From Bryobacteraceae bacterium (GTDB lineage: Bacteria > Acidobacteriota > Terriglobia > Bryobacterales > Bryobacteraceae), in NCBI GenBank assembly GCA_030041495.1, contig JASHNT010000122.1, forward strand, positions 1 through 64,000: a stretch of DNA of 64,000 nt. Reading direction: 5' to 3'. The translations under genes were made by a program, and so were the position numbers. The notes below the pieces were generated by a model, which was not told the DNA's origin, made no database searches, and was given only the letters and a program-made list of their open reading frames with translations. Positions 1,312-63,111 of this stretch are shown piece by piece. Every line of letters begins with the position of its first letter. Positions within the stretch are counted from its first letter, which is position 1.

Positions 1312-1997
1312 TGCTGCGGTGCTCCTTGTTGCGAGCTCGCGGCCGGTTGCGAGCCAGCGCGGGTTTGCGAGCCGGAGCGCGCGGCGAAACGGTTGTACAG
1401 CATGTAAACGCCGGCTCCGATCAACAGCATCGGCCAGAAGCGCAGGATCTTGCGTAGCTCCAGGATGCGCAGATTGTCGAGCAGCAGGACCGTTCCCAGC
1501 ACGATCAGAATCACGGGAATCGCGGGAAAGCGCGCGCCGCGCACGGGGACTAAGCTCGAGAGCTCATCGACGGGCTGACCGAGTTGGCGCTGGCGCGCGG
1601 TGTGGTAAGCCTCGAAGGGCATGTAGGCCCAGAAGGCTGCGATCATCATGCCCACCAGAGGCTCGAAGCCTCCGGCCGCGTCGTTGTTGATGATGGAGAA
1701 TCCCAGCGCGATCACCGCCACGTGGATGAAGCCTTTGGCGTACTGCCCGTTGTAGATCGCTCCCACGCCGGGAATCAAGCCCAGCCAGAAGGCGGCCGCC
1801 GGCGAAACTCCCGCGGCGGAGGATGGGGCGCGGTACGCACCTGCGCCAGGCGGGGGAGCGCTGTAGGGAGAAGAAGGAGCGCCCTCCACCGGAGCATGCT
1901 CCTTGCAGTACATCGCTCCATGCGACCGATGCACCTCGCTCTCGGCGAGCGCCCTGCCGCAAGCGCGGCAGTATCCGGCAATGGTCGCCTCACTCAT
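1308..1997 (-). CDS. B-box-like zinc finger plus DUF5668 membrane protein
   Basis: The protein is 229 aa. Residues 9-35 hold a Cys/His zinc-binding pattern (CRACG, then H-x-S-H and C-K-E-H) like B-box-type zinc fingers. A Pro/Ala-rich linker follows. Residues about 68-125 resemble TM2/DUF5683-type double-membrane segments (GLIPGVGAIYNGQYAKG), and residues about 155-205 carry a LiaF/DUF5668 transmembrane pair. The gene follows the anti-sigma gene in the same operon and ends in a 4-nt overlap with the next gene. The region just upstream of its start is an unusual repeat that copies the start codon (listed separately). The family is common in acidobacteria; its function is unknown. Confidence 0.75.
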   Translation of the reverse strand: MSEATIAGYCRACGRALAESEVHRSHGAMYCKEHAPVEGAPSSPYSAPPPGAGAYRAPSSAAGVSPAAAFWLGLIPGVGAIYNGQYAKGFIHVAVIALGFSIINNDAAGGFEPLVGMMIAAFWAYMPFEAYHTARQRQLGQPVDELSSLVPVRGARFPAIPVILIVLGTVLLLDNLRILELRKILRFWPMLLIGAGVYMLYNRFAARSGSQTRAGSQPAASSQQGAPQQ

Positions 1998-2051
1998 CTG
2001 TCTTCACGCCTCTCACTTCCCTCGCCTCTCACTTCGCGCCTCACTCATTTC
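1986..2051 (-). repeat. Start-codon-duplicating repeat between anti-sigma gene and B-box gene
   Basis: The first 12 nt of the downstream gene (plus-strand positions 1986-1997, including its ATG) recur exactly at 2037-2048. Between them a 13-bp unit is repeated at 2007-2019 and 2023-2035. Read on the minus strand this gives small ORFs: ATG at 2048 encodes 11 codons beginning MSEA (stop 2013-2015), and GTG at 2032 encodes 12 codons whose TGA (1994-1996) overlaps the true ATG at 1997 as ATGA. Whether they are translated is unknown. Confidence 0.6.
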
Positions 2052-2057
2052 CCAAGC

Positions 2058-2618
2058 TTATTTCGAATTCCGCGGCGGCTGATTCTGCGTATCGGGAGCG
2101 TCGGCCTGCCACTCGCTCAACCGTGTCTGAATCTCATACACCAGCCGGATGTTCTCGTACGACTTTACCCCACGCTCCCACATCCGGTTCACCCCGTTCT
2201 CGGCAATCGTGTAGACCTTCACCGGATCGAGACGGGAGGCGGTCAACTGGTGCATCTGCGGCTCCAGCATAAAGAACGACAGCGCCGCCGCGCCCATGCC
2301 CATCACCAGACGGGGTTGCAGAATCGGCTCCAGCCATCCGCCCAGGACGCGCCCGAAAAGCCGGCGCGCCAGGCTCGGCTTCATGACCGGCAGATGGAAC
2401 AGGATGCGGTTCACCAATTCCGGAGGAGCTTCCAGGACGGCCGTCCGCGCGAGGAATGCGACCGCGGCGGAGGAATCCTGCGCCAGATCCCGGCAGCCTG
2501 CGCAGGACTGCAGATGATTCTCCAGCGCCGCTCGCACGGGGCCGGCCAAGGTGCCGTCGACGTATTCGGCGAGCAGGATCTCGGCGTCGGAGCAAAACAT
2601 CTTGTCCTGCGGCGTCAT
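2058..2618 (-). CDS. Anti-sigma factor with zf-HC2 domain
   Basis: The product is 186 aa. The N-terminal anti-sigma domain has the zinc motif H35-x3-C39-x2-C42 after an acidic helix (residues 10-35), as in ZAS/zf-HC2 proteins that bind the cognate ECF sigma factor. A hydrophobic segment near residues 104-120 is a probable membrane anchor, and the C-terminal 65 residues would be exported. It lies directly downstream of the ECF sigma gene, so it is the likely partner. Its ATG overlaps the stop of an intervening repeat-encoded mini-ORF by 4 nt, which is atypical for this gene pair. Confidence 0.85.
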   Translation of the reverse strand: MTPQDKMFCSDAEILLAEYVDGTLAGPVRAALENHLQSCAGCRDLAQDSSAAVAFLARTAVLEAPPELVNRILFHLPVMKPSLARRLFGRVLGGWLEPILQPRLVMGMGAAALSFFMLEPQMHQLTASRLDPVKVYTIAENGVNRMWERGVKSYENIRLVYEIQTRLSEWQADAPDTQNQPPRNSK

Positions 2619-2737
2619 TTTCTCGAGCCTTCCGCCTCCGGCGTCATCCGCTTTGAACCTTCCGCCTCCGGCGTCATCTGCTTTGAACCTTCCGCCTCCG
2701 GCGTCATCCGCTTTGAACCTTCCGCCTCCGGCGTCAT
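2615..2737 (-). CDS. Tandem-repeat mini-ORF bridging sigma and anti-sigma genes
   Basis: A 30-bp repeat is present in four copies (starting at 2737, 2707, 2677 and 2647 on the minus strand), the last only 29 bp before the anti-sigma ATG. Read from ATG 2737 it encodes 40 aa as four copies of a decapeptide, MTPEAEGSK(R/Q), the last ending SRK. Its start overlaps the sigma stop (ATGA, 2734-2737) and its stop overlaps the anti-sigma start (ATGA, 2615-2618). Each unit carries purine-rich GGAGGCGGAAGG, which could act as a Shine-Dalgarno for the next ATG. The repeat resembles the anti-sigma start itself (MTPQDK). Translation is plausible but unproven; the alternative is a fused anti-sigma start broken by 1 nt. 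Confidence 0.5.
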   Translation of the reverse strand: MTPEAEGSKRMTPEAEGSKQMTPEAEGSKRMTPEAEGSRK

Positions 2738-3393
2738 ATCGCGACCTTCTGCTTGCGCAGGATCCGGGTCAGCTCCGCGCGGCCGCGGTTAAGCCGCGAT
2801 TTCACTGTTCCTTCCGGGACGTTCAGCACTTGGGCGATTTCTTTGTACTCCATCTCCTCCAGATCCCGCAAGATTAACGTCTCGCGCAATTCCGGCGACA
2901 GCTTCTGCAGAGCGCCCTGCAGCACCTCGCTGGCCTCGCGTCCGGCGAGCAAACCCTCGGTGCGGGCTGAGGCTGCCTGCGTTTCGATCATCGGAAGTTG
3001 CTCCTCGATCGAATCCGTCGCCCGCTCCAGCTTGGTGCGCCGGTAATGGTCGATCAGCAGGTTGCGGGTCAACCTGGACAGCCAGACCATGAACGATCCT
3101 TCGCCGGCGCGGAAACTTTTGAGCGACCGGAACACCCGCAGAAATACTTCCTGCGTCAGGTCTTGCGACTCTTGAACCGAGGACGTGAAACGGCAACAAA
3201 TGGCGTACACACGGCGGGTATGGATCTTCACCAGATCCTCCCAGGCGGCCTCCTCACCGCCCAGGCACCGCTCGATGAGCTGGATATCCTGGTCCAAGCC
3301 CGGCCTACGCCGTTCGCCTCCGAACGCACTACCCGCCCAGGCGGCTGCCGGGCTTGGCGTGATAACCTGTGCAACTGTGGCAATCGATGCCAT
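2734..3393 (-). CDS. ECF (extracytoplasmic function) sigma-70 family factor
   Basis: The protein is 219 aa with sigma region 2 at about residues 45-110 (DLTQEVFLRVFRSL; then WLSRLTRNLLIDHYRR) and region 4 at about 160-212 (EMEYKEIAQVLNVPEGTVKSRLNRGR, a helix-turn-helix recognising the -35 element). Region 1.1 and region 3 are absent, as expected for an ECF factor. The N-terminal 30 residues are non-conserved, so a start further inside is possible. It heads the operon with the anti-sigma factor and LiaF-like membrane proteins, which suggests an envelope signal. A 6-bp inverted repeat lies upstream in the intergenic region. Confidence 0.88.
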   Translation of the reverse strand: MASIATVAQVITPSPAAAWAGSAFGGERRRPGLDQDIQLIERCLGGEEAAWEDLVKIHTRRVYAICCRFTSSVQESQDLTQEVFLRVFRSLKSFRAGEGSFMVWLSRLTRNLLIDHYRRTKLERATDSIEEQLPMIETQAASARTEGLLAGREASEVLQGALQKLSPELRETLILRDLEEMEYKEIAQVLNVPEGTVKSRLNRGRAELTRILRKQKVAI

Positions 3394-62114: not shown

Positions 62115-62163
62115 TTTCCGAACGGCACAACGGAGCCTTCGGCCTGTGCCGCTAGCCAACCCT

Positions 62164-62169
62164 TATACT
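62164..62169 (+). promoter_or_regulatory. -10 box (TATACT) immediately before larE
   Basis: TATACT ends 6 nt before the larE ATG, so the transcript would begin at or next to the start codon. There is no Shine-Dalgarno between them. A -35 is not clear. Confidence 0.45.
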
Positions 62170-62175
62170 GAAAAT

Positions 62176-63111
62176 ATGGAATCCAAGCAGCAGCGCCTGC
62201 TCGACGCGCTTGCGCGCATGGAGAGCGTGATTGTGGCCTACTCCGGCGGGGCGGATTCGGCGTACCTGGCTTGGGCCGCGCGGCAAGCGCTGGGAGACCG
62301 GGCCATCGCGATCACGGCGGATTCGGCATCGCTGCCGGAGTCGCACAAACGCGACGCGGAAGAGTTCGCGCGGGCCTGGGGCATCCGCCACGAATACGTC
62401 GCCACGCGCGAATTCGAGAACCCGGAGTACGTGAAGAACGACGGCAACCGCTGCTTCCATTGCAAGGATGAATTATTCACGCGGCTGGGCGAGCTGGCGC
62501 GCGAGCGCGGCATCGCGCACGTAATCTATGGCGTGAACGTGGACGATCTGGGCGATTACCGGCCGGGGCAGCGTGCCGCGAAGCTGCACCATGCCGAAGC
62601 TCCGCTGGTTGATGCGGGATTAACCAAGGCCGAGATCCGGGAACTTTCCCGCCGCGCCGGGCTCGCGACATGGGACCGTCCGGCATCGGCTTGCCTGAGT
62701 TCGCGCATTCCTTACGGGACTCCGGTGACCATCCAGAACGTGAAGACGGTGGAGCGCGGCGAGGAAGAAATTCGCGCGCTCGGCTTCCGCCAGTTCCGCG
62801 TTCGGTTCCATGGGGACCTGGTGCGCATCGAGATTGCGCCGGAAGAGCTGCCGTACGCGCTTCAGCTTGAGATGGCTCGCGAATTCACAGCCATCTTCAA
62901 GCGGCTCGGGTTTCACTACGTGACGCTCGATCTGGAAGGCTACCGGCAGGGGGCGCTGAATGAGGCGCTGGTAGGCGTAAGTAACCATGGAGCGGACACG
63001 CCGCTCCATATCAGCAACCATAGAGCGGACACGCCGCTCCATATCAGCAACCATGGAGCGGACACGCCGCTCCATATCAGTTCGCCGACGGCCGCTCCAC
63101 ATGGTCGATGA
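62176..63111 (+). CDS. larE: ATP-dependent sacrificial sulfur transferase LarE
   Basis: The product is 311 aa. The N-type PP-loop is S23-G-G-A-D-S28, followed by C93-x2-C96 and the conserved C173 in the ACLSSRIPYG segment that donates sulfur in LarE. The enzyme builds the thiocarboxylates of the nickel-pincer cofactor of lactate racemase. No larA, larB or larC is in the window. The natural end of the family is near residue 267; residues 269-302 are three repeats of an 11-aa unit encoded by palindromic repeats. The start appears leaderless. Confidence 0.88.
   Translation: MESKQQRLLDALARMESVIVAYSGGADSAYLAWAARQALGDRAIAITADSASLPESHKRDAEEFARAWGIRHEYVATREFENPEYVKNDGNRCFHCKDELFTRLGELARERGIAHVIYGVNVDDLGDYRPGQRAAKLHHAEAPLVDAGLTKAEIRELSRRAGLATWDRPASACLSSRIPYGTPVTIQNVKTVERGEEEIRALGFRQFRVRFHGDLVRIEIAPEELPYALQLEMAREFTAIFKRLGFHYVTLDLEGYRQGALNEALVGVSNHGADTPLHISNHRADTPLHISNHGADTPLHISSPTAAPHGR
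62981..63079. repeat. Three 33-bp palindromic repeats at the larE/TIGR03435 junction
   Basis: Units at 62981-63013, 63014-63046 and 63047-63079 are nearly identical (about two differences). Each contains a 9-bp inverted repeat, ATGGAGCGG / CCGCTCCAT, with a 5-nt loop; unit 2 has one mismatch. They encode SNH(G/R)ADTPLHI in LarE, and the last three bases are the stop codon of the convergent TIGR03435 gene. The hairpins could act as a two-way terminator or be a mobile REP-like element. Confidence 0.75.

Follow-up and report, generated by a model that had tools for sequence, protein, structure and literature searches.

A tandem-repeat mini-ORF as a probable coupling-preserving bridge between the ECF sigma and anti-sigma genes of a Bryobacteraceae bacterium

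In mycobacteria, tandem MIRU units lie between two coupled genes, senX3 and regX3. An excerpt of a 2025 review describes MIRUs as elements that insert at start codons, whereupon an internal ORF is coupled at -4 nt (PMC12548453). The locus reported here resembles these elements, as the excerpt presents them, in its architecture, namely a repeat at a start codon with an internal ORF coupled to the gene there. It differs from them in that its unit is 30 bp long and is not dispersed in the genome, and in that the partner genes encode a sigma factor and its anti-sigma factor. The locus also shares its gene order, zf-HC2 partner, strand and stop/start overlap with ECF sigma/anti-sigma operons that overlap directly through ATGA. 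However, the link between the two genes runs through an additional mini-ORF. With phase-variable tandem repeats the present array shares near-identical units placed in tandem close to a translation start, but steps of 30 bp would keep its frame and its links. Modelling of the sigma-B network, which involves another kind of sigma factor, argues that it can matter how much of each operon partner is made relative to the other (excerpt of PMC5207722). Literature searches for anti-sigma translational coupling with a tandem repeat, or for reinitiation at an intercistronic repeat, returned nothing on the subject as judged by title, which does not prove its absence from print, and a search for 'MIRU' with 'DTGA' found nothing.

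The window, a 64,000-nucleotide stretch of one contig, contains the following features at and around the junction.

2734..3393, minus strand: ECF-type sigma factor gene (Pfam Sigma70_r2 and Sigma70_r4_2)
2615..2737, minus strand: bridging mini-ORF of 40 codons, four decapeptide units, with its ATG on the sigma stop and its TGA on the anti-sigma start
2708..2737, minus strand: unit 1, 30 bp (sequence, Tandem Repeats Finder)
2678..2707, minus strand: unit 2, 30 bp, one base changed, last codon R to Q (sequence, Tandem Repeats Finder)
2648..2677, minus strand: unit 3, 30 bp (sequence, Tandem Repeats Finder)
2619..2647, minus strand: unit 4, 29 bp, last 11 bases diverged (sequence, Tandem Repeats Finder)
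2606..2618, minus strand: degenerate start of a fifth unit (12 of 13 bases), which is the anti-sigma start (sequence; the 60-bp Tandem Repeats Finder row extends to 2606)
2058..2618, minus strand: zf-HC2 anti-sigma gene (Pfam zf-HC2, E 1.6e-9)
1308-1997, downstream: gene after the anti-sigma gene, with matches to LiaF-type transmembrane families (Pfam)

The sigma gene matches regions 2 and 4 and has its zf-HC2 partner adjacent on the same strand, as is characteristic of an ECF sigma/anti-sigma pair. The sequence-only reading of four units of 30, 30, 30 and 29 bp, which form a 40-aa ORF starting on the sigma stop and ending on the anti-sigma ATG, was confirmed. The sigma protein ends in KVAI and its TGA (2736-2734) lies within the ATGA of the repeat ORF, the TGA of which in turn sits within the ATGA of the anti-sigma start at 2618. 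The downstream link is thus a 4-nt overlap, the same as that given for MIRU ORFs. The predicted peptide, MTPEAEGSKR MTPEAEGSKQ MTPEAEGSKR MTPEAEGSRK, matched no Pfam family. Unit 3 repeats unit 1 exactly and unit 2 is one base off, and Tandem Repeats Finder describes the array as 30 bp x 3.7 with a 97% match and a score of 213. In unit 4, six of the last 11 bases differ from unit 1 and the unit is one base shorter, so that its length of 29 bp is not the result of a single base having been dropped from an otherwise perfect copy. As the usual anti-sigma start of the relatives aligns with Met7 of the window protein (2600), the first six residues of the latter are part of the expanded region. The repeat unit is open on the opposite strand too, within the ORFs 1584-2792 (+) and 2551-2877 (+). 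Openness is cheap in GC-rich units and is by itself weak evidence. RNA structure at the junction gave no signal (z -0.46; 60 of 200 shuffles were as stable).

We favor, with moderate confidence, the explanation that this lineage-specific repeat is a MIRU-like bridge ORF, which preserves coupling at an ECF sigma/anti-sigma overlap. A short segment would have been acquired at the direct ATGA overlap of the pair and then expanded in tandem to four units. Since the units are open and each starts with ATGA, and since the first ATG and the anti-sigma ATG lie at a distance of 2 modulo 3, the units make up one mini-ORF that runs from the sigma stop to the anti-sigma start. Ribosomes finishing the sigma gene would re-initiate on the mini-ORF, traverse it and re-initiate on the anti-sigma gene, and coupling would thus survive the insertion. 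Because the units start at the shared ATGA, are open and have the right phase, both overlaps would be kept at any number of 30-bp units. We infer that the mini-ORF undergoes translation, that selection acts to maintain coupling and that the peptide as such can be dispensed with.

At a cut-off of E<=1e-55 the sigma gene matched in 219 of 237 family genomes, not all of which were fetched. We read 213 orthologous loci, made up of 30, 25 (of 28, three distant ones having been dropped), 123 and 35 (six of them from another family), and removal of identical junctions left 188 distinct ones. Stop and start overlap directly in 119 of these (109 ATGA, 9 GTGA and 1 TTGA). The remainder comprises 42 gaps of 3-18 nt, 26 gaps of at least 20 nt and one junction for which no start was found. 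Within the genus, five of the 23 genomes lack a sigma orthologue at this cut-off, and the 18 orthologues show eight overlaps, three short gaps (2-7 nt) and seven gaps of at least 20 nt. At the junction of the closest relative (G008) the repeat is absent. None of the 22 other genus genomes searched matches the array DNA at E<=0.01. The array is thus found in one genome of 23, its own, where it occupies a single locus with no second one at E below 0.1. A dispersed element was considered and rejected, there being neither a second locus in the genome nor a match in those 22 genomes.

As the overlap is common in relatives, the array would have been gained at a junction that was already coupled. Direct overlap is the common state, and the coupled overlap is likely the ancestral state that the array has preserved. 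Among the findings that would speak against it, the sequence-only reading had listed relatives in which this operon has an ordinary overlap and no repeat. Such relatives are frequent, and their gene arrangement shows that the operon does not need the array.

The ATGA at the sigma stop is kept in 10 of the 26 gaps of at least 20 nt. We call a junction bridged if the frame from the ATG at the sigma stop runs uninterrupted across the insert and terminates at the TGA of the anti-sigma ATGA. Eight of the ten junctions, the window included, are bridged.

G000 (window): 40 codons
G017 (L013): 33 codons
G004 (L015): 64 codons
G016: 31 codons
G012: 20 codons, sister of L020
G029: 11 codons, ATG 2 nt downstream of the usual place
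L109: 9 codons
L189: 9 codons

The claim that the window ORF is a link in a chain from sigma through mini-ORF to anti-sigma gains from this comparison, as different inserts elsewhere form the same chain. The bridged inserts reach 187 nt and their ORFs 64 codons. The unbridged junctions are L020, in which a TAG lies 3 nt short of the ATG, and L164, which has a moderate Shine-Dalgarno of its own (-4.2). The ten inserts share only matches of 8-9 bases (E >=0.09), except for the sisters L019 and L020 (12 bases, E 0.001). In a sigma tree with 45 rows, seven of these have a gap of at least 30 nt, a state that requires six changes, at least two of which are forced by strongly supported branches. Some points weigh against the bridge reading. 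Candidate GTG or TTG starts of the anti-sigma frame also lie inside the insert in L013, L018 and L019, and the mini-ORF of L033 begins 2 nt past the start of the sigma stop instead of on it at -1.

With dinucleotide shuffles and a random frame as the chance model, bridges are expected at a rate of 7-33% per junction, and eight or more of ten arise with a probability of 4.6e-5 (5.5e-5 in a repeat run). The excess persists without L020 (8.8e-6), without the window (7 of 9, 1.7e-4) and with gaps of at least 30 nt only (6 of 8, 4.6e-4). The window insert alone would bridge with a probability of 0.24, and the bridge claim therefore rests on the comparison. Among the other 16 long gaps, in which the ATGA at the stop is lost, seven have an ATGA start and the same frame reaches it in one of the seven (Fisher 0.015). 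Altogether, 18 of the 26 long gaps are unbridged. Nine of the long gaps occur in genus g29 (L223, L224, L227, L228, L230 and L236-L239), all of them after TAA or TAG sigma stops and none of them bridged; the ATGA overlap seems to have been lost at these junctions. A search of another family, in which six of 18 genomes matched, found no long gap.

The bridge count depends on how neighboring cases are treated. At five of the 119 overlaps (L037, L053, L129, L180 and L193) the anti-sigma factor is extended in frame at its N-terminus by 9-13 codons, which may be the outcome, in the other phase, of an insert at the same point. If these are counted as misses, the bridges become 8 of 15 (chance 0.011). 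If they are counted as coupling kept, the figure is 13 of 15 (0.0011). Taking GTGA or TTGA stops (L131 and L171) as eligible would add two more misses. The excess of bridges looks real, but the test was framed post hoc, after the first bridges had been noticed; of the three eligible gaps that turned up afterwards (L109, L164 and L189), two are bridged, which is not significant by itself.

The inserts of G004 and G017 have inverted ends made of short heptamer-like repeats. It is these ends, and not the inserts as a whole, that recur within the respective genomes, in 16 and 10 match rows, counting the locus itself and, among the 16 rows of G004, two self-matches of the inverted ends. Tested as mobile elements, the two inserts gave no evidence of MIRU-like targeting, as seven contexts, judged solely by ORFs of at least 90 aa and by eye, proved to be heptamer-rich stretches with no evident bridge position. 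The G016 insert did not recur in the four genomes searched.

Initiation signals were compared at the first 156 junctions, with Shine-Dalgarno energies at the anti-sigma start limited to a spacing of 3-10. As the assembly of the window did not yield the 16S 3'-end pattern, the standard anti-Shine-Dalgarno was assumed. The median energy is -5.8 kcal/mol for the 101 overlaps and -2.4 for the 17 long gaps among them. At the bridged junctions L013, L015, L018 and L019 hardly any Shine-Dalgarno precedes the anti-sigma start (0 to -2.9 kcal/mol). Arrival of the ribosomes by coupling would account for this, and coupling looks needed there. The own signals of L033, L109 and L189 are strong (-6.3 to -11.6), and at these junctions and in the window independent initiation of the anti-sigma gene is also possible. 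In the purine segment of the array units, the aligned spacing between the GGAGG core and the following ATG is 15-16 nt, which is too long for a good Shine-Dalgarno, whereas GGAAGG precedes ATG2-4 at a spacing of 8 with -6.4 kcal/mol and the anti-sigma ATG at the same spacing with -5.7.

This last signal is what one would expect if the array were a neutral slippage repeat that is merely tolerated, with the anti-sigma gene started independently from the Shine-Dalgarno of the last unit and the mini-ORF being incidental. We regard this as possible but unlikely. The units are nearly identical and recent, the window insert could bridge by chance, most long gaps have no bridge, and the excess shrinks once the extensions are counted as misses. 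Against this stand the bridging of most inserts where the ATGA is kept, the still higher proportion once the extensions are counted as coupling kept, and the weak Shine-Dalgarno in four other bridged genomes. Doubtful to a greater degree is a scheme in which selection filters insertions at this point, keeping mainly those that give a translatable bridge or an in-frame extension, with the units of the window's array, each with its own Shine-Dalgarno and ATG, re-capturing ribosomes and their number setting the dosage of anti-sigma. The tunable or phase-variable sigma/anti-sigma ratio proposed in the sequence-only reading did not find support. Near-identical tandem units slip easily, and ATG2-4 each have a well-spaced Shine-Dalgarno; with their ATGs and purine stretches, all units might feed ribosomes to one and the same stop/start. 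However, the array is present in only one of the 23 genus genomes, and with steps of 30 bp neither the two ATGA links nor the last start site would change, from which no on/off switch follows. We therefore consider it improbable that a varying number of units sets the ratio.

An error of assembly or base calling in the last unit, which would make the true array an N-terminal extension of the anti-sigma factor, is very improbable. The genome is a draft of 144 contigs and in-frame extensions do occur at other overlaps, but towards its end the last unit is changed at several positions rather than by one base, the same phase was found in seven other genomes, and an array of 119 bp is shorter than the usual read lengths. 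Least probable of all is a decapeptide product with a function of its own, such as binding to sigma or anti-sigma. The open frame and the regular unit agree with it, whereas the lack of a Pfam match, the different sequences of the other bridge ORFs and the restriction of the array to one genome among those searched do not.

The bridge reading thus extends beyond the window. Bridges over different inserts at one coupled junction appear to be a new find and a stronger one than the switch reading, and we regard it as moderately interesting, given its post hoc nature. Selection for sigma/anti-sigma coupling is usually inferred from the overlap alone. A natural test of such selection, outside mycobacteria, is offered by the different insertions through which several lineages have restored the stop/start chain. 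The natural bridges are ready reporter designs, and bridging suggests one origin of short intergenic ORFs.

Tandem arrays are present elsewhere in the genome as well. In the 464 kb covered by the window and 20 further stretches, 20 arrays score at least 50 and four score at least 120. The junction array is one of these four and is thus not background. The other strong arrays of the same genome include L099 5922-6076 (54 bp x 2.9) and L098 15425-15511 (41 bp x 2.1). At 62983-63080 of the window, three near-identical units of 33 bp, each with an inverted repeat of the GGAGCGG..CCGCTCC type, lengthen the C-terminus of the ORF 62146-63111.
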